Assembly: GCA_025350305.1 (NCBI GenBank)
Contig: JANXYC010000169.1
Coordinates: forward strand, 1-33,789
Length of the DNA: 33,789 bases
Direction of reading: 5' to 3'
Source of the DNA: Cyclobacteriaceae bacterium
GTDB taxonomy: Bacteria; Bacteroidota; Bacteroidia; Cytophagales; Cyclobacteriaceae
Of the stretch, positions 6,091 through 26,119 are shown one piece after another (position 1 is the first letter of the stretch; each line of letters begins with the position of its first letter). The position numbers were made by a program, and so were the translations under genes. The notes below the pieces were generated by a model. It was not told where the DNA came from. It was given only the letters and a program-made list of their open reading frames with translations, and made no database searches.

Positions 6091-6219
6091 ATGAAAAGAG
6101 TTTTAGCTGTTATCGCCCTCATTGGTTTTCTCGCATCTTGTAGCTCCTACACTTGCCCAACGTACAGCAAGAAGGAAGTGAAGAAAAATGAGAATAAAAT
6201 CCAGAGATTAATCATCTAG
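6091..6219 (+). CDS. Small (42 aa) lipoprotein
   Basis: MKRVLAVIALIGFLASCSSYTCPTYSKKEVKKNENKIQRLII*; signal peptide with lipobox FLASC; below the size cutoff of the ORF track. Confidence 0.7.
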   Translation: MKRVLAVIALIGFLASCSSYTCPTYSKKEVKKNENKIQRLII

Positions 6220-7376
6220 CGGTATTTCTTAATGTCTTCCGGACCTATTGTATCTCCGGCCATTATTACTAACCGCTCTATGACATTCCGCAGCTCACGG
6301 ATATTACCCGTCCAGGGATGAGTTTCCAGCAGTTTGATTGCTTTTGGCTCTATCTCCTTTTTCTTGGAGCCGTATTCTTCCGAAATATCTTTCAGGAATT
6401 TCTCCACCAATAATGGTATGTCTTCTTTTCGGTCGCTGAGTGCAGGCACCGCGATAAGTATTACGCCGAGCCGATGATATAAATCTTCACGAAAGCGTCC
6501 CGCTGCTATTTCTTGTTTTAAGTTCTTGTTCGTGGCCGCGACTACACGTACGCTCACGACAATGTCTTTGTCGCCCCCCACGCGTGTAATCTTATTTTCT
6601 TGTAAGGCACGAAGTACCTTGGCCTGTGCAGCGAGACTCATATCGCCGATTTCATCAAGAAACAACGTGCCACTTTCTGCTTGCTCAAATTTTCCAATAC
6701 GTTGCTTAATCGCGGATGTAAACGAACCTTTTTCATGACCGAATAACTCACTTTCAATGAGCTCGCTCGGAATGGCCGCACAGTTTACTTCTATAAATGG
6801 ACCTTCACTGTTGTTACTTTTTTCATGGATCGAACGGGCTACCAATTCTTTTCCGCTACCGCTGGGTCCGGTGATCAAAACACGTGCTTCTGTAGGCGCC
6901 ACTTTATCGATCACTTCCCGTACCTGATCCAACGCAGGAGATTGACCAATCATTTCAAACTTGCGTGAGACTTTCTTCCGTAAAAATTTTGTCTCCTTAA
7001 CCAGGGATTGACGATCCAGGGCATTTCGCACGGTAATCAATAACCGGTTGAGATCGGGTGGCTTTTGCAGAAAGTCGTAGGCTCCCATTTTGACAGCGTC
7101 CACCGCCATCTCGGTAGTACCGTGTGCAGAGATCATGATAAAGGGAGTGTGAATATTTTTTTCCCGGACGTTCTGAAGCACGTCCATGCCATCCATTTTT
7201 GGCATCTTTATATCACACAGCGCAAGGTCATATGAATAACTTTCGAGAAGAAGAAGTCCTTCTGCCCCGTCTTTGGCTTCATCGACGGTAAGCTTCATTT
7301 CCTTTTGGTCAAGCAATATTTCTTTAAGCACTGCCCGAATGCTGGCTTCGTCTTCAATGATCAGGATTTTTGGCAT
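6216..7376 (-). CDS. Sigma-54-dependent response regulator (REC + AAA+), no C-terminal HTH
   Basis: 386 aa; REC domain (ILIIEDEASIRAVL, CDIKMPKMDGMDVL), AAA+ (GPSGSGKELVARSIH, GTLFLDEIGDM), ends ...RLVIMAGDTIGPEDIKKYR. Confidence 0.92.
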   Translation of the reverse strand: MPKILIIEDEASIRAVLKEILLDQKEMKLTVDEAKDGAEGLLLLESYSYDLALCDIKMPKMDGMDVLQNVREKNIHTPFIMISAHGTTEMAVDAVKMGAYDFLQKPPDLNRLLITVRNALDRQSLVKETKFLRKKVSRKFEMIGQSPALDQVREVIDKVAPTEARVLITGPSGSGKELVARSIHEKSNNSEGPFIEVNCAAIPSELIESELFGHEKGSFTSAIKQRIGKFEQAESGTLFLDEIGDMSLAAQAKVLRALQENKITRVGGDKDIVVSVRVVAATNKNLKQEIAAGRFREDLYHRLGVILIAVPALSDRKEDIPLLVEKFLKDISEEYGSKKKEIEPKAIKLLETHPWTGNIRELRNVIERLVIMAGDTIGPEDIKKYR

Positions 7377-17421: not shown

Positions 17422-18771
17422 CTAGAATTTCAACCGGAAGATTGTTTTTACGCCAGGCTCGGATTCAACGGAGAGCGAACCGTCATGCATTTGCATAATT
17501 TGTCGTGAGAGACTCAGGCCAATGCCAGAACCCGTTTTTTTAGTTGTGAAGAATGGAACAAACACGCGGCTCAACGCTTCTTTTATAATTCCGGAGCCAT
17601 TGTCGACAACTTCTATCAAAACAACACTCCCCGAATATTTTCCGATCAGATCAATTTTTCCATCCTGAACATCACCCAGGGCTTCAATTGAATTTTTGAT
17701 GAGGTTGATGAGTACCTGTTCTATCATTTCTTCATCCGCCTGAATGGTCAGGTAGTCTGAATCACACGTATACCTAAATTCAATCGTAGTTTTTCTGATT
17801 TCTGGTTTCATCAGTTGCGCCACCTTTTCGATCAGTTCTTTTACCAGCACCGTTTTAATTTTTGGCTGTGGCAGAGAAGTATACTCCCGGTAGGCGTCAA
17901 TGAATTTGATAAGTCCTTTGCTGCGGTTCTCAATGGTACTTAACCCTTCACGCAAATCTTCAGCACCTTCGGTTTTCAATTCGTAGTGACTGTTCTTCTG
18001 CACCATATCATGATCCAGTATTTCCCGCAAGGTGGACGTGAGCGAGGAAATAGGGGTGATGGAGTTCATGATTTCGTGACGAAGCACGCGTGTAAGATTT
18101 TGCCAGGCTTCAATTTCCTGCTGTTGCAATTCTGTCTGGATATTTTGCAGGGTAAGCAGCTTCATCGTGTTTCCACGGATTCGCAATTCCGTTGCCTGGA
18201 TCGTAAGTAAAAAATCCTGGTCGGCTTTGTACAAGGTGCTTTTCCCAGGCTCCACTTCTTTAATCGCCTGAAGTAATTTTGGTTTTTTTTCTTTTAACTG
18301 TTCGATGTTCTTAATCGATTGAGTGCCCATAAAGCGTTTCGCATTGGCATTTATCAGTTGAATATTTCCTTCTGTATCGAATGAAAGGATCCCGGTTCGC
18401 ACCTGCTGCACCACTGTGTTGAGGTACTGCCAGTGTTCTTCTTTTTCTGAGCGTGCTTTGCGAAAGGCCTCCAGTACCTCATTGAATTTTGCATTGAGGT
18501 CGCGAAAGCTCGAACCTAATTTATTATCCGCAGTGAAACCGGAAATGAAATCGGAATATTTGACAGATTCCAGGAAGCGAGTGAGTTTGCGGTTGGTCTG
18601 CGAGGTGAACCGGAAAAGTTCCACCAGTTGTCCAATGATGATCATGCCCGTGAGCATCGCAGCGAAAACCATATTGGCATGGTTGACCATGTACACAAAT
18701 AAGGCCATTGTCAACCCGATCAGGATGACACGGAATGCAATACGAAAAGTAAAATCATGGAATAGCTTCAT
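17422..18771 (-). CDS. Sensor histidine kinase (PAS + HisKA + HATPase, NtrY-like)
   Basis: 449 aa; VLRHEIMNSITPISSLTSTL, LINLIKNSIEAL, VVDNGSGI, FFTTKKTGSGIGLSLSRQIM; two N-terminal TM segments. Confidence 0.93.
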   Translation of the reverse strand: MKLFHDFTFRIAFRVILIGLTMALFVYMVNHANMVFAAMLTGMIIIGQLVELFRFTSQTNRKLTRFLESVKYSDFISGFTADNKLGSSFRDLNAKFNEVLEAFRKARSEKEEHWQYLNTVVQQVRTGILSFDTEGNIQLINANAKRFMGTQSIKNIEQLKEKKPKLLQAIKEVEPGKSTLYKADQDFLLTIQATELRIRGNTMKLLTLQNIQTELQQQEIEAWQNLTRVLRHEIMNSITPISSLTSTLREILDHDMVQKNSHYELKTEGAEDLREGLSTIENRSKGLIKFIDAYREYTSLPQPKIKTVLVKELIEKVAQLMKPEIRKTTIEFRYTCDSDYLTIQADEEMIEQVLINLIKNSIEALGDVQDGKIDLIGKYSGSVVLIEVVDNGSGIIKEALSRVFVPFFTTKKTGSGIGLSLSRQIMQMHDGSLSVESEPGVKTIFRLKF

Positions 18772-18844: not shown

Positions 18845-18872
18845 AGCTTTTAGCTTTTGGCCTTTAGCTCTA
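18845..18872. repeat. 7-bp periodic intergenic array (AGCTTTT units)
   Basis: agctttt-agctttt-ggccttt-agctcta, ending in the response regulator stop codon. Confidence 0.6.
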
Positions 18873-20255
18873 CAGTCCATGCTTTTCGAGTCTCCGGTAC
18901 AGTGAGGAGCGTGTGAGACCCAGTTCAGCGGCAGCCTGTGTGATGTTTCCATTATATTTTTTAAGCACCTTACGAATCAATAGCTTTTCCACTTCGTCCA
19001 GATTGAACTGATCCAGATTTAAGGGTTGTTCATTCTCTTTTCCCAACGTGGAATTAAAATTAAAATCCTCTGGCTGTAGTACCGAGCTGTTGGAAAGAAT
19101 GATGGCACGCTCAATAGCATGCTGCAGTTCACGGATGTTGCCCGGCCACGGATGCTTATTCATCCGGGTCATCGCTCCATCACTGATTTTCGTTACGTTC
19201 TTGGTGTACTTCTCTGCGTAATGCTTCAGGAAATAGTGTGAGAGCAGGGGGATGTCTTCCATCCGGTCGCGGAGGGAAGGTATTTCAATTTCAATTGTGT
19301 TCACACGGTACAACAAGTCCTGGCGAAAGCGATTTTCTTTCACCATATCATAGAGTGGTAGATTGGTTGCGCAGATCAGCCGAATGTCAATGGCTATATC
19401 CTTGTTCGCACCTACCCGGCTTACTTTGCGGTTCTGCAGAACGGTGAGCAGCTTTGCTTGTAAAGGGATGGATAAGTTTCCAATCTCATCCAGGAATAAG
19501 GTTCCGTTGTTGGCAATTTCAAATCGCCCAGGCCGGTCTTCCTTGGCGTCGGTGAATGATCCTTTTTTGTGTCCAAAGAGCTCGCTTTCAAAAAGTGTTT
19601 CAGTGATGGAGCCAAGGTCTACCGATACAAAGGTCTCCTTGCATCTTGCTGAGTGGCGGTGAATCGCCTGTGCTATCAATTCTTTTCCGGTACCGTTTTC
19701 ACCAAGGATGAGTACGTTAGCGTCGGTGTGCGCCACGCGGTCAATGGTTTGGAAAATACGCTGCATCACGGCACTCTGGCCGATAATTTCCTGATAGCGG
19801 TCATTGATGGCCTGGTTGATTTCCTGGTTTTTGATTTTTAATGTATTCACCTCATCACGCGTTTCGCGCAGGCGCATGGAGGAATAAAGCGTGGCAAGCA
19901 GTTTTTCATTCTCCCACGGCTTCAAAACAAAATCTGTTGCGCCGGCTTTAATAGCTTTGACAGCCATCTGGATGTCGCCATACGCAGTGATGAGCACTAC
20001 CACCGCGGAGGGATCGATCTGGAGGATTTTCTCCAGCCAGTAATATCCCTCGCTGCCGCTGCTCAAATCTTTTGTGAAGTTCATGTCGAGCAGGATGACA
20101 TCATAGTCATCGTTATTCATCAACGCCGGGATGGCTTCAGGATTTTTTTCGATATCGACCTGGACGAAGTGACGCTTCAGGTGCATCTTGGCTGCTTTCA
20201 GAAGGTCTTCGTTGTCATCAACGATCAGGATTTTTCCTTGCTTTTGATCAGTCAT
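18870..20255 (-). CDS. Sigma-54-dependent response regulator, NtrC family (REC + AAA+ + Fis HTH)
   Basis: 461 aa; REC (ILIVDDNEDLLKAAK), AAA+ (GENGTGKELIAQAIH), HTH (NGNITQAAAELGLTRSSLYRRLEKHGL). Confidence 0.95.
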   Translation of the reverse strand: MTDQKQGKILIVDDNEDLLKAAKMHLKRHFVQVDIEKNPEAIPALMNNDDYDVILLDMNFTKDLSSGSEGYYWLEKILQIDPSAVVVLITAYGDIQMAVKAIKAGATDFVLKPWENEKLLATLYSSMRLRETRDEVNTLKIKNQEINQAINDRYQEIIGQSAVMQRIFQTIDRVAHTDANVLILGENGTGKELIAQAIHRHSARCKETFVSVDLGSITETLFESELFGHKKGSFTDAKEDRPGRFEIANNGTLFLDEIGNLSIPLQAKLLTVLQNRKVSRVGANKDIAIDIRLICATNLPLYDMVKENRFRQDLLYRVNTIEIEIPSLRDRMEDIPLLSHYFLKHYAEKYTKNVTKISDGAMTRMNKHPWPGNIRELQHAIERAIILSNSSVLQPEDFNFNSTLGKENEQPLNLDQFNLDEVEKLLIRKVLKKYNGNITQAAAELGLTRSSLYRRLEKHGL

Positions 20256-20370
20256 TTATAGTTGTTTTATCGAACGTTTTAGTCCAATTGGGCAAAGTTG
20301 ATACCGCACTCATGAAACCCTTACAGGGCGTTAATTTTCAATTATTTAGTTTTCAAGTTACCAAAATCAC

Positions 20371-20384
20371 GTCCGTAATCGGAC
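20371..20384. promoter_or_regulatory. Candidate response-regulator binding palindrome (UAS) GTCCGTAATCGGAC
   Basis: Perfect 5-bp arms with 4-bp spacer, about 75 bp upstream of the sigma-54-like -24 element, between the divergent regulator and adaptor genes. Confidence 0.5.
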
Positions 20385-20447
20385 ACATACGTTCACCTTT
20401 GAACGAGATATTTAAAGAAAAGATGGCTTTTTATTGTTTTTGGCCGT

Positions 20448-20464
20448 TGGCACGGTAGTTGGCA
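20448..20464 (+). promoter_or_regulatory. Candidate sigma-54 (-24/-12) promoter TGGCACGGTAGTTGGCA
   Basis: Matches TGGCACG-N4-TTGCW except for one extra or substituted G in the -12 element. Confidence 0.65.
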
Positions 20465-20499
20465 ATGGGGAGTTGTCATTTCAGATCAAAAACATTGGG

Positions 20500-21774
20500 A
20501 TGATGGATAACATTACATCGCGAATGGATAAGAAACTTGTAAAAAAGACGTGGACGCTAAAGCGCATTGCAACCTTCGGAGGCATTGGATTATTTGTCAT
20601 TTTCGTTTCCTACCAATTTATTTTTGCTGACCGGCGCTCGAAGCTGAAAATTGAAATGGATAAGATTACCATTTCGGAAGTTAAGCGCGGTGAATTCAAA
20701 GAGTATATACCTCAGACGGGTATTGTAGAACCCAGCCGCCAGGTTTTCCTGGACGCCATTGAAGGAGGAAATATTAAGCGCATTGCTCGCGAAAGCGGAG
20801 CGATGTTGAAGAAGGGTGATGTCATATTGGAGTTGACCAATCTTAACCGGGAGCTTGCGGTTTTACAGCAGGAAGCTCAGTTGGTGGAAAGTATAAACCG
20901 TTCCAGGGATACCCGCTTGCTTATCACCAGAAATGAACTCGATCAACACTCCGCATTGGCACAAATAGATAATCAATTAGCTATTTTCGAGCCTCAGTAC
21001 CGACGCCAAAAGCAACTGTTGGAAAAGAAACTTATTGCAAGACAAGATTTTGAGCGGACAGAAGCGGATTACAAATACAACCTTTCTCGCAGGAAATTCA
21101 CATACGATGTTTATAGGAAAGATTCCATTAACCGTCTTCAACAGCTCCATGACGTGGATGTTTCTGAAAGACGGATGGCCATTAACCTGGAGGGAATCGG
21201 CAAGATTCTGGATAACCTTATACTTCGTGCACCCATCGATGGACAACTTTCAACGCCACACTGGGAAGTTGGCCAGGCCGTTGCCACTGGTCAACGCTTA
21301 GGTCAGGTGGACATCGTGGGTAGTTATAAAGTGCGGGTACCCATCGATGAGTTGTACTTGCCCCGGATCTCTCAGGGGTTGCATGCTACTACCGATTTTG
21401 CGGGAAAAACATATAGTCTCAAAATCACGTATGTATATCCAAACATCACGGCCGGTAGATTTGAAGTAGATATGGATTTTGATGGCGAAACACCACAAGG
21501 TATTCGCCGTGGCCAGTCGCTTCGCTTACGCATCGAATTGGGCCAATCTTCCGAGGAGTTACTGTTGCCCATGGGTGGGTTCTATAAGGATACAGGTGGC
21601 AACTGGGTCTTTATTCTGGATGGTGAAAAACGCGCCGTGCGCCGGGATATTAAGCTGGGCCGCAAGATGGGAAGCGAGTACTTTGAAGTGCTGGAAGGCC
21701 TGAAGCCAGGTGATAAAGTAATTACTTCCTCGTACGAGAATTTTGGGAACAATGAAGTTTTAATCCTGAATTAA
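20500..21774 (+). CDS. HlyD/MacA-type periplasmic adaptor of ABC exporter
   Basis: One TM, barrel-sandwich/coiled-coil pattern (GIVEPSRQVFLDAIEGGNIKRIARESGAMLKKGDVILELTN; ILRAPIDGQLS); ORF track start 20434 overlaps the promoter, so ATG 20500 or 20503 is preferred. Confidence 0.9.
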   Translation: MMDNITSRMDKKLVKKTWTLKRIATFGGIGLFVIFVSYQFIFADRRSKLKIEMDKITISEVKRGEFKEYIPQTGIVEPSRQVFLDAIEGGNIKRIARESGAMLKKGDVILELTNLNRELAVLQQEAQLVESINRSRDTRLLITRNELDQHSALAQIDNQLAIFEPQYRRQKQLLEKKLIARQDFERTEADYKYNLSRRKFTYDVYRKDSINRLQQLHDVDVSERRMAINLEGIGKILDNLILRAPIDGQLSTPHWEVGQAVATGQRLGQVDIVGSYKVRVPIDELYLPRISQGLHATTDFAGKTYSLKITYVYPNITAGRFEVDMDFDGETPQGIRRGQSLRLRIELGQSSEELLLPMGGFYKDTGGNWVFILDGEKRAVRRDIKLGRKMGSEYFEVLEGLKPGDKVITSSYENFGNNEVLILN

Positions 21775-21834: not shown

Positions 21835-22012
21835 TTAATCCTACTTCTATGTCAAGGCCATTATTATATAATCATTCTAATTACGCTTCACGAGGCTACA
21901 AGCTGCAGTCGTCAAGCCTCATGCTATTTTCACATACAAACAGCTTGAAGCCTGTAGTCTTACTGAATTGGGGTGGAATTTGAACCATATTCTCATACTG
22001 AAGTAGGATTAA
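21835..22012. repeat. 178-bp element bounded by 13-bp inverted repeats (MITE-like or structured)
   Basis: TTAATCCTACTTC at 21835-21847 and GAAGTAGGATTAA at 22000-22012; nested inverted pairs inside (GAGGCT/AGCCTC; CTACAAGCTG/CAGCTT..GTAG). Confidence 0.6.
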
Positions 22013-22072: not shown

Positions 22073-22762
22073 ATGATTCTCCTAAAAAACCTTGAAAAAA
22101 TTTACACGACAGAAGAAGTAGAGACCACCGCCCTCAATAGCATCAACCTTGAGATCAAGGATGGCGAATTTGTGGCGATCATGGGCCCTTCAGGATGCGG
22201 TAAATCCACATTGCTCAACATCCTCGGTTTGCTCGACAATCCCTCGAATGGGGAATACCATTTTGGCGATCATGAAGTTGCAAAATACAGCGAACGTCAG
22301 CGTGCACAGTTGCGCAAAGGCTCTATCGGTTTTGTATTTCAGAGCTTTAATTTGATCGATGAGCTTACAGTGTTTGAAAATGTTGAACTTCCGTTGTTGT
22401 ACATGAAAGTACCTGCCGGCGAACGAAAACAGCGCGTGGAAGCAGTGCTGGAGCGCATGAACATCATGCATCGCAGAAACCACTTCCCACAGCAACTTTC
22501 CGGTGGTCAGCAGCAACGTGTTGCGATCTCACGGGCCATTGTTGCGAAACCAAAAGTAATCCTTGCCGATGAACCTACTGGTAACCTGGATTCAGCCAAT
22601 GGTGAAGAAGTAATGAAGCTGCTTTCGCAATTAAACGAGGAAGGGACAACCATTGTGATGGTAACACACTCACCATACGATGCCAACTACGCCCACCGCA
22701 TCATCAACCTTTTTGACGGTAAAGTGGTCACTGAAAATATTAAGGAGCATTTCCACGTATAA
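22073..22762 (+). CDS. ABC transporter ATP-binding protein (MacB/LolD type)
   Basis: 229 aa; Walker [10 protein letters not shown], signature [14 protein letters not shown], Walker [14 protein letters not shown]. Confidence 0.96.
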
Positions 22763-22774
22763 GTGGAATGTCAG

Positions 22775-22821
22775 CCTTCGACAGGATCAGTCGGACAAGC
22801 TTAGGCTGAGCCTGTCGAAGG
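22775..22821. repeat. Inverted repeat CCTTCGACAGG...CCTGTCGAAGG after the ATPase gene
   Basis: Perfect 11-bp arms; resembles dispersed CCTTCGACAGGCTCAG-type repeats. Confidence 0.75.
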
Positions 22822-23158: not shown

Positions 23159-25564
23159 ATGATCAAGAATTACCTGCTCATCACCTTTCGGAGTCTGATG
23201 AAGAACAAACTTTTCATTTTCATCAATGTATTTGGGATGGGCATTGCTGTCGCCTGCTGTATTGTTGCCTATTTGAATTGGCAATTCAGCAATCAGTGGG
23301 ACTATAGCCAGACGAAAGCAGATAAGGTCTACCGGGTTCAGTTTGTAAGAGATTTCCAGAGTAAGCGCGAACGCAACGGGATGGCTCCAATGCCGCTGGC
23401 CAGTTATATCAGACATAACTTTAAAGATGTAGGCGCAACTGTGCGGTACATGTCTTCATATTGCGATATACGTATCGGGGACGAAGTATTTGGCACCGGG
23501 ATGGTCTTTGCCGACTCGGCATTTTTCGATTTGTTTACTTATGAACTAAAGTACGGATCGATTGGTGACTTCCATAACAAAGGGAAAGTATTCATCAGCG
23601 ATGAAGTTGCCAGAAAATACTTTAACAGCGAGGACGTCGTGGGTCGCTTCATCACACAAATTGTTTTGGGAAAAGATGGAATCAGGAGGCCAAAAGAATT
23701 TGAAGTGGGCGGGGTGTTTAAGCAATTGCCACACAACTCAAGTTTCAGATTCGATATCATCACAATGTTTGACAATTTCTGGGACATTAACATCGATCCC
23801 GATTTGTCGGAGACCAGTTGGAAGAAATGGGCGCACGTCCTCTTTTTGAAGATAGACGACCCGACACGCGTCGCGGACGTCACCCGGCAGTTGCAGGAAT
23901 ATATAGAACCTCAAAACAAAGTAAGGGAAGACTTTAAGATCACGTCGTACTATCTGGAAAACTTTTCTGGCATGATGAAGCGCAACCGAGTCAATCCTCG
24001 GGTTGACAGCGATTATCTCAATGGTGGAATTCCAGATGAAGCGGTGACAGTGCCTTCTGTGCTGGCTGCCATGCTTTTGTTGCTGGCGTGTTTCAACTTT
24101 ACCAATACCTCCATTGCCATTTCCTGCCGCAGGTTGAAAGAGATTGGCATAAGAAAAGTGATGGGTGGGATGCGGTCGCAGCTGATTGCGCAGTTTCTGG
24201 GGGAAAACCTGGTGCTATGCCTCCTTGGACTGATTGCTGGTTTATTTTTGGCGGAGTTACTGGTTCCTGCCTATGATGCCCTGTGGACGTGGCTTGATTT
24301 GAATTTGAGCTACACTGAAGACGTCGGCTTTCTACTATTTATTTTTGGATTGCTATTTGTAACGGCGATCATAGCAGGTTCGTATCCCTCATTTTACATC
24401 ACATCGTTTGAGCCCGTCAGTATTTTGAAGGGTAAGGCGAAATTCGGTGGCACCAATTGGTTTACCCGGTTTTTGCTGGGTGGTCAATTTGTTATTTCGC
24501 TAATGGTGATCATCATGGCATTTGCGTTTTATCAAAACGGCCAATACCAGAAGGACTATGACCTGGGGTTTGCCACGCATGGTGTCATTTCTACCTGGGT
24601 GAACAATGAAGGTGGGTTCAACACGTATCGTGATGCGCTTGCGTCGAATACTGACATTGAGGTGATCGCCGGAACGAAGCATCATGTTGCCAATGGATGG
24701 TACAATGATCCGATAAAATTTGAATCGCTCGAGCGTGAAGTGGACATTATGGATGTGGGCGATAATTATTTTGAAGCGATGGATATGACCTTGGTGGCGG
24801 GCAGAAAATTCCAGAAAGATTCTGAAACCGACCGGAAAGAATCGGTGATTGTAACTGAAGAATTGGTAAAGCAATTTGGTTGGACAGATAACCCCATTGG
24901 GAAGCGGTTGGTTTGGATGGACACAGTCCAATTATTCGTTGTAGGTGTGGTCAAGAATGTCTATGCCAGGGCCTTGTGGCAGCCGATCCAGCCACTCATG
25001 GTTCGATACACCTCCCCCGATAAATATCAGCAGCTCGTGGTGAAAATGGACCCTAAAAAAATCGCAGGCGTAAATGAGTTTATGGAGAAGAAGTGGAAAG
25101 AAGTTTTTCCCAATACCCAATACAACGGTCAGATGATTGATCAGGAGCTTCAGGAGACCAATGACATTAACAAGAACGTAGTCATTATGTTTGGCTTCCT
25201 TGGATTTTTTGCAGCACTGATGACCGGAATAGGCTTGTTTACACTCGTATCACTCAACATTGTTAAGAAGATGAAGGAAATCGGGGTGCGGAAAGTACTG
25301 GGTGCCTCCATCGCAAATATTGCCGGCGTCATTAATTTTGAGTTCATGATAAATCTCGGTATCGCCACAGCCGTTGGAGGGACGCTTGGATATATGGCCG
25401 CCAATTGGTTGATGAAGTCGATCTGGGCATATTATTTAAAAATGGGACTAATCAGCCTTGCCCTTTCGGTGATAGCGATGGTGATGATTGCCATTCTATC
25501 GGTTGGCTACAAGACCTTGAGTACAGCCTCGTTGAACCCGACAAAGACATTACGGGATGAGTAA
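23159..25564 (+). CDS. ABC transporter permease (MacB/FtsX family)
   Basis: 801 aa; MIKNYLLITFRSLMKNKLFIFINVFG, duplicated FtsX-like domains with KEIGIRKVMGG and KEIGVRKVLGAS. Confidence 0.95.
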   Translation: MIKNYLLITFRSLMKNKLFIFINVFGMGIAVACCIVAYLNWQFSNQWDYSQTKADKVYRVQFVRDFQSKRERNGMAPMPLASYIRHNFKDVGATVRYMSSYCDIRIGDEVFGTGMVFADSAFFDLFTYELKYGSIGDFHNKGKVFISDEVARKYFNSEDVVGRFITQIVLGKDGIRRPKEFEVGGVFKQLPHNSSFRFDIITMFDNFWDINIDPDLSETSWKKWAHVLFLKIDDPTRVADVTRQLQEYIEPQNKVREDFKITSYYLENFSGMMKRNRVNPRVDSDYLNGGIPDEAVTVPSVLAAMLLLLACFNFTNTSIAISCRRLKEIGIRKVMGGMRSQLIAQFLGENLVLCLLGLIAGLFLAELLVPAYDALWTWLDLNLSYTEDVGFLLFIFGLLFVTAIIAGSYPSFYITSFEPVSILKGKAKFGGTNWFTRFLLGGQFVISLMVIIMAFAFYQNGQYQKDYDLGFATHGVISTWVNNEGGFNTYRDALASNTDIEVIAGTKHHVANGWYNDPIKFESLEREVDIMDVGDNYFEAMDMTLVAGRKFQKDSETDRKESVIVTEELVKQFGWTDNPIGKRLVWMDTVQLFVVGVVKNVYARALWQPIQPLMVRYTSPDKYQQLVVKMDPKKIAGVNEFMEKKWKEVFPNTQYNGQMIDQELQETNDINKNVVIMFGFLGFFAALMTGIGLFTLVSLNIVKKMKEIGVRKVLGASIANIAGVINFEFMINLGIATAVGGTLGYMAANWLMKSIWAYYLKMGLISLALSVIAMVMIAILSVGYKTLSTASLNPTKTLRDE

Positions 25565-25605: not shown

Positions 25606-26119
25606 ATGATTAAAAATTACTTCAAAATTGCCGTTCGGAATATTCTGAAACACAAATGGCATCACACCTCAACATTTGAAAATTATCGGGGTGGTCAAGG
25701 ATTTCAACTTCGAGACCCTGAAAGCAAAAGTGCGACCGGTGGTGATTCGCCTAACGGATAAATCACGGCAGTTGATGGTACGTTATGAAGGAGACCCGCG
25801 TAAAATTATTTTATCAGTTGAACAGCGTACCAAAGAAATCGGTGTTCGAAAAGCGCTGGGAGCGTCGGTGTATAGCCTGACCATTTTACTATCAAAAGAG
25901 TTTACGCGCTTGGTTCTTATTGCCATTATTCCTGCTGTGGCCGTGGGCTGGTATGTAGCCGATTGGTGGCTCGGCGATTTTATGTACCGAATTGAGTTGA
26001 ATCCACTTTTGTTTGTGGGGAGCGCGTTTGGTGCTATTGTAATTGCTTGGGCTACAGTTTCTTACCAATCGGAGAAGGCGGCCTCCTCAAATCCTGTTAG
26101 TTCATTGCGATACGAATAA
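25606..26119 (+). pseudogene. Remnant of a second MacB/FtsX permease, internally deleted and frameshifted
   Basis: N-terminal MIKNYFKIAVRNILKHKW joins, in another frame, the C-terminal KIIGVVKDFNFETLKAKVRPV...; GDPRKIILSV then abuts EQRTKEIGVRKALGAS. Confidence 0.85.

Follow-up and report, generated by a model that had tools for sequence, protein, structure and literature searches.

A predicted sigma-54-type promoter without the -12 C and a putative tandem palindromic enhancer upstream of a MacB/FtsX-type exporter operon in Cyclobacteriaceae

An exporter operon on the plus strand and a two-component system on the minus strand diverge from a common intergenic region, which raises the question of whether the latter controls the former, and through which promoter. 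The window (the whole stretch of 33,789 nucleotides analysed here) corresponds to contig C31 in an assembly of 4.2 Mb whose close relatives are Cyclobacteriaceae/Cytophagales. A first-pass annotation had proposed that the operon is driven by a sigma-54 promoter on which the divergent NtrC-type regulator acts through an enhancer palindrome.

The gene neighbourhood given in that annotation, a histidine kinase (minus strand), an NtrC-type response regulator with a Fis HTH (minus) and a HlyD-type adaptor (plus), was confirmed by Pfam. The kinase (17422–18771, minus strand; Pfam HATPase_c) is an AtoS/NtrY-like sensor; AtoS is its top NCBIfam match, with a score under the cut-off, and two membrane stretches are predicted at the N-terminus from the sequence. 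In the regulator (18870–20255, minus strand) Pfam finds the complete NtrC-family activator domain set of receiver, sigma-54-activating AAA+ and Fis HTH, and the sigma-contact loop reads GSFTDA, not GAFTGA. A sigma-54 gene was found in the genome; this is uninformative as a discriminating test because rpoN is present in almost the entire phylum (295 of 297 genomes). Another NtrC-type response regulator in the window (6216–7376, minus strand; receiver, AAA+ and lid, loop GSFTSA) ends without a Fis HTH, and the minus-strand frames past its stop are likewise without an HTH.

The start of the adaptor had been placed at ATG 20500 or 20503. An ortholog alignment supports neither: residues M9-D10 of the 20500 frame, the M-D of MDKK/MDRK, are invariant, and the conserved ATG at 20524 is therefore most likely the start. 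With this correction the HlyD-type periplasmic adaptor (Pfam HlyD_3) spans 20524–21774 on the plus strand and begins MDKKLVKK. It is followed on the same strand by a MacB/DarD-like ABC transporter ATPase (22073–22762; Pfam, NCBIfam), whose orthologs are 76–96% identical and placed after the adaptor in relatives, and by a duplicated MacB_PCD/FtsX permease of the ADOP type (23159–25564; Pfam, NCBIfam), which matches the first permease of Chryseolinea serpens (L144) at 51%. A C-terminal remnant of a second permease lies at 25655–26119 (plus strand) and matches C-terminal pieces of the second C. serpens permease at 51–66%. In C. serpens, Ohtaekwangia koreensis (L135) and a further relative (L094) the ATPase is followed by two ORFs of permease size, each with about 800 codons; of the operon's second FtsX permease the window has only these C-terminal pieces, where the relatives' ORF is about 800 codons long. 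In NCBIfam the adaptor matched DarC, the ATPase DarD and the permease the ADOP duplicated-permease model, all three under the curated cut-offs (equivalog scores against cut-offs: DarC 181 vs 450, DarD 289 vs 375, DarB 79 vs 700). With a HlyD-type adaptor, an ABC ATPase and a MacB_PCD/FtsX permease, the exporter is MacAB-type in the broad sense.

Two features of the operon's spacing were observed in passing. The adaptor–ATPase gap measures about 300 nt in the window and about 85–125 in three relatives, and it contains a 178-nt stretch (21835–22012) whose ends form perfect inverted repeats of 13 nt (TTAATCCTACTTC), and which resembles a small mobile MITE-like insert. Directly 3' of the ATPase gene, at 22775–22821, lies a REP-like 16-nt inverted repeat (CCTTCGACAGGATCAG / CTGAGCCTGTCGAAGG).

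Pattern counts in the window itself, allowing up to two mismatches, gave 16 occurrences of the -24/-12 pattern against 17.9 expected and 9 of the palindrome pattern against 8.3, with 20371–20384 as the sole exact match of the latter. Since both were no better than chance, these counts were rejected as evidence and conservation had to decide. Searches for the adaptor covered 119 same-family genomes, and the intergenic regions compared came from the same family, from named genomes and from other families. The divergent regulator adjoins the adaptor in 28 of 29 relatives' loci, the remaining one lacking it within the 1.5 kb covered. The divergent regulator/adaptor pair, the enhancer and the promoter are kept together across the family, and the promoter is also found in other families.

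The palindrome GTCCG-TAAT-CGGAC is present at 20371–20384 as originally described (the window reads GTCCGTAATCGGAC), and its conservation in orthologous intergenic regions, when checked, was clear: GTYCG-N4-CGRAC occurs in 103 of 140 distinct same-family regions, against 0.2 in shuffles. It is not the single element it had been taken for. A second palindrome, GTTCA-CCTT-TGAAC (extended form CGTTCA-CCTT-TGAACG), had been overlooked at 20391–20404, exactly 20 bp downstream of the first, and a second palindrome at exactly this distance is found in 95 of the 140 regions and in none of the shuffles. Both are predicted enhancer sites. That palindrome 1 should instead be a transcription terminator or RNA hairpin can hardly be credited: a pattern scan does flag a terminator-like stem on the minus strand (20387–20368), but the palindrome lies between divergent genes and upstream of both, keeps a fixed register with palindrome 2 and the promoter, and recurs upstream of other exporter genes. 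On the regulator's side, CGGTATCAACTTTG (20293–20306, minus strand) precedes the start of the regulator by about 50 nt; its pattern, CGGTAY-N4-TTTG, occurs in 53 of 104 loci and is probably the regulator's own promoter, with a spacing unlike that of the Bacteroidota TAnnTTTG consensus.

Downstream of the predicted enhancer pair, the -24/-12-like element of the TTGGCA type lies where the first-pass annotation had put it, at 20447–20464 on the plus strand. It reads TTGGCACG-GTAG-TTGGCA, the same element being TTGGCACGGTAGTTGGCA, and can be parsed as a sigma-54-type promoter TTGGCAC-GGTAG-TTGGCA with the -24 GG at 20449–20450, the -13 G at 20461 and, at -12, G 20462 instead of C. From canonical spacing, transcription is predicted to start near 20474. 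Simple genome-wide -24/-12 patterns were too noisy to be of use (40 matches to TTGGCA-N3-9-TTGGC and 70 to TTGGCA-N3-9-TTGCW). Upstream of the adaptor in relatives, where the same check was run, TTGGCAY-N4/5-TTGG is present in 99 of 140 distinct same-family intergenic regions (shuffle mean 0.15). The more general combination of TGGCAY at -24 and G at -13 occurs in 138 of 141 distinct same-family regions, with a spacer of 5 in 125 and of 4 in 13.

Palindrome 1 and the -24 element are 84–89 bp apart in 91 loci, 76 bp in 6 and 67 bp in 1; the 76-bp class comprises the window together with four close loci and, in addition, L294. Enhancer–promoter distances thus differ by steps of about one helical turn, presumably because the activator would need to face the polymerase.

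A C at -12 is usual in sigma-54 promoters, though not strictly obligatory. The base that follows TTGGCAY-N5-TTG in the same family is G in 117 cases, T in 7, A in 1 and C in none; in other Bacteroidota families it is A in 24, G in 4, T in 2 and C in 1. The -12 element of the window had been called imperfect, and the C is indeed absent; rather than a local flaw, however, its absence is systematic in this promoter class, with a C in only 1 of 156 spacer-5 promoters. One way around a changed base would be a sigma-54 promoter with a lengthened spacer, in which the GC of TTGGCA is the real -12 element placed one base too far (GG-N11-GC). The TTGGCA word is whole in most same-family promoters, and a spacer shorter by one base, as in 13 of 138, brings the GC to the canonical distance. 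In other families, on the other hand, the TTG stands at the canonical distance but reads TTGA without a GC (24 of 31), and other targets in the genome read TTGT and TTGA. GG-N11-GC was therefore rejected as a rule, the changed -12 base is the simpler reading, and we regard the lengthened spacer as unlikely.

As controls we used groES promoters, since groES is under sigma-54 in Flavobacterium psychrophilum according to start-site mapping (PMC9723704). In the same family they have the -13 G in 29 of 29 cases and the -12 C in 20 of 29, a large gap from the exporter promoters, for which a Fisher p-value is not to be taken at face value because the sequences share descent. The groES promoter of the window's own genome reads TCGA, which again makes the -12 C usual, not obligatory. 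For grpE, which is SM4-controlled in F. psychrophilum (PMC9723704), no consistent upstream element was recognised in the same family that could serve as a second sigma-54 control. The groES promoters also bear on the idea that TTGGCAC-N5-TTGG, read as a direct repeat of TTGGCA, is bound by a different factor, with the operon on another sigma factor. The direct repeat in the same family and the missing -12 C would fit such a site, but the second TTGGCA is not kept in other families (TTGAAC, TTGACA), the groES promoters of the same genomes, of sigma-54 type in Flavobacterium by start-site mapping, share the first half, and both enhancer and activator are of a type that goes with sigma-54. We consider it quite improbable and file the exporter promoters as a putative variant of the sigma-54 class without the -12 C, not as consensus promoters. 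As such they offer a natural experiment on the role of that base.

A change is also found in the activator. The exporter regulators carry GSFTDA or GAFTDA in 101 of 101 orthologs, and the orthologs of a paralogous regulator (contig C176) GAFTDA, GSFTDA or GAYTDA in 30 of 30, while the groES-linked activator has GSFTGA or GAFTGA in 30 of 30. The GAFTGA loop makes contact with region I of sigma-54, and its position is one from which it could touch DNA at -12 (PMC7057263); GAFTDA is held to be compatible with activity in Desulfovibrio (PMC4641369). Tentatively, and with more doubt than confidence, one may imagine two sigma-54 sub-systems in Bacteroidota that use one sigma factor and are separated partly by the -12 base and the activator loop. 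GAFTGA-type activators would then possibly go with TGC promoters (groES), and GAFTDA-type activators with promoters without the -12 C, the latter side perhaps comprising the exporter regulon and the autoregulation of the paralog; the comparison of loop and -12 base covers three orthologous groups, too few for a firm correlation. Were this scheme true, loop and -12 base would have co-evolved, and -12 would be a specificity determinant and not solely a general sigma-54 contact. The class also bears on the meaning of the G-to-D change in GAFTGA, the effect of which is a stated open question (PMC10714721).

In many of the paralog loci (L180 4044–4200, L321–L350) the gene for the paralogous regulator is preceded by a TTGGCAY element whose -12 bases are degenerate (TTCC, for example) and by palindromes similar to those of the exporter. 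Together, the promoter-like element and the palindromes at its own gene suggest autoregulation of this regulator family. The likeness extends to the HTH: the recognition helices of the two regulators are nearly identical (LTRSSLYRRLEKHGL and LTRASLYRRMEKYGL) and both have the D loop. The paralogous regulator (C176 type) might accordingly be the main activator at the exporter, in which case it would have the divergent regulator for a partner or competitor; but the latter is adjacent in almost all loci, and we hold this arrangement to be slightly less likely still than a lengthened spacer. With its similar HTH the paralog could nonetheless act as activator at some sites.

To see where else the tandem site occurs, the genome was searched for the full site with up to two mismatches; among the matches, the exporter's site alone had helped to define the motif. 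It was found in 7 places, against 0 in the control. Five of these lie 76–86 bp upstream of -24/-12-like elements, in which the base after TTG is G, G, T, G and A, and their targets are the adaptor–ABC–permease exporter of the window (C31), a MacB_PCD/FtsX permease (C176), a MacB_PCD permease (C133), an ABC ATPase (C283) and a broken permease-like frame on C250 (L416; minus strand, near 1552–1800), whose site has 2 mismatches and a promoter-like element. This last frame, FtsX-permease-like, is broken after 73 codons, through decay or an assembly error. The other two sites are without an exporter-type gene, in or beside coding sequence, and are probably due to chance. Over 1.6 Mb of sequence from a sister genome the tandem site occurs in 4 places (reversed control 0): one precedes the ortholog of the exporter, two precede MacB_PCD/FtsX permeases and one precedes the paralogous regulator; one of the permease sites has a clear promoter at 86 bp and the other is without a clear one. 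From its recurrence before other exporter genes, the tandem site, together with a promoter without the -12 C, looks like the mark of a small, probably dedicated MacB/FtsX-type exporter regulon, possibly shared with the close paralogous regulator on C176.

Taken together, the joint conservation, the helical-turn spacing and the recurrence before MacB/FtsX-type genes support the original proposal of a sigma-54 promoter and enhancer used for the exporter by the divergent NtrC-type regulator, on comparative evidence. We consider the following scheme, drawn from sequence, conservation, spacing, recurrence and domain content, very probable as a whole. The histidine kinase would phosphorylate the divergent regulator, which would bind the two palindromes 20 bp apart, one dimer at each. 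The bound dimers would assemble into a hexamer, reach the promoter by bending of the DNA and open an RNA polymerase–sigma54 complex poised at TTGGCAC-N5-TTGG. Transcription of the adaptor–ABC–permease operon would then begin at about 20474, from a promoter of a class in which the -12 C appears replaced by G in Cyclobacteriaceae and mostly by A in other Bacteroidota, and which would also serve the FtsX-type regulon. Counting against the scheme are the absence of the -12 C, the GSFTDA loop, the unclear permease site of the sister genome and the broken permease on C250.

The idea that sigma-54 controls the cell exterior is older (PMC3162934), and sigma-54 networks in Bacteroidota are poorly mapped. 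Sigma-54 control of FtsX-like/antimicrobial-peptide ABC permeases in Bacteroidia was predicted in a 2025 matrix-based survey, which called its FtsX-permease prediction a first (PMC12316311) and suggested the control of FtsX exporters on statistical grounds. The survey concerns the same kind of target gene in the same phylum; by matrix-based enrichment it gives the consensus TGGCAC-N5-7-TTGCT, and its accessible text mentions neither an activator or enhancer nor a spacing rule or a change at -12. In the open-access papers found, this exporter system likewise comes without a named activator, and neither a tandem enhancer nor a spacing rule or -12 anomaly is described for it. Measured against the accessible part of the survey, what is new here is the predicted promoter/enhancer architecture, the likely activator, the putative regulon and the -12 anomaly. 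The gain is concrete: a candidate activator with a putative operator, a rule for the spacing and a short list of targets, which can be searched in many Bacteroidota genomes.

The SM4 promoters of F. psychrophilum (PMC9723704) are likewise Bacteroidota sigma-54 promoters, groES included, with an envelope-stress theme; their printed selection is without a HlyD/FtsX exporter, and their motif is called typical -24/-12. With DarBCD and MacAB-type exporters the present one shares a separate HlyD-type adaptor, an ABC ATPase and a MacB_PCD/FtsX permease. Dar models are among its top NCBIfam matches, although the Dar and MacAB equivalog models all remain below their cut-offs; unlike in the darobactin system, no toxin or peptide biosynthesis gene was found next to the exporter. 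E. coli MacB differs, since the exporter here has the ATPase as a separate gene and a permease with duplicated domains. Closest in regulatory layout are the NtrC/ZraR-type sigma-54 systems, with which it has in common a Receiver–AAA+–Fis HTH activator, palindromic sites about 75–110 bp upstream, TGGCAY at -24, G at -13 and helical phasing of the enhancer. It departs from them in the replacement of the -12 C by G or A throughout, in the GAFTDA/GSFTDA loop of its activators and in two palindromes fixed 20 bp apart.
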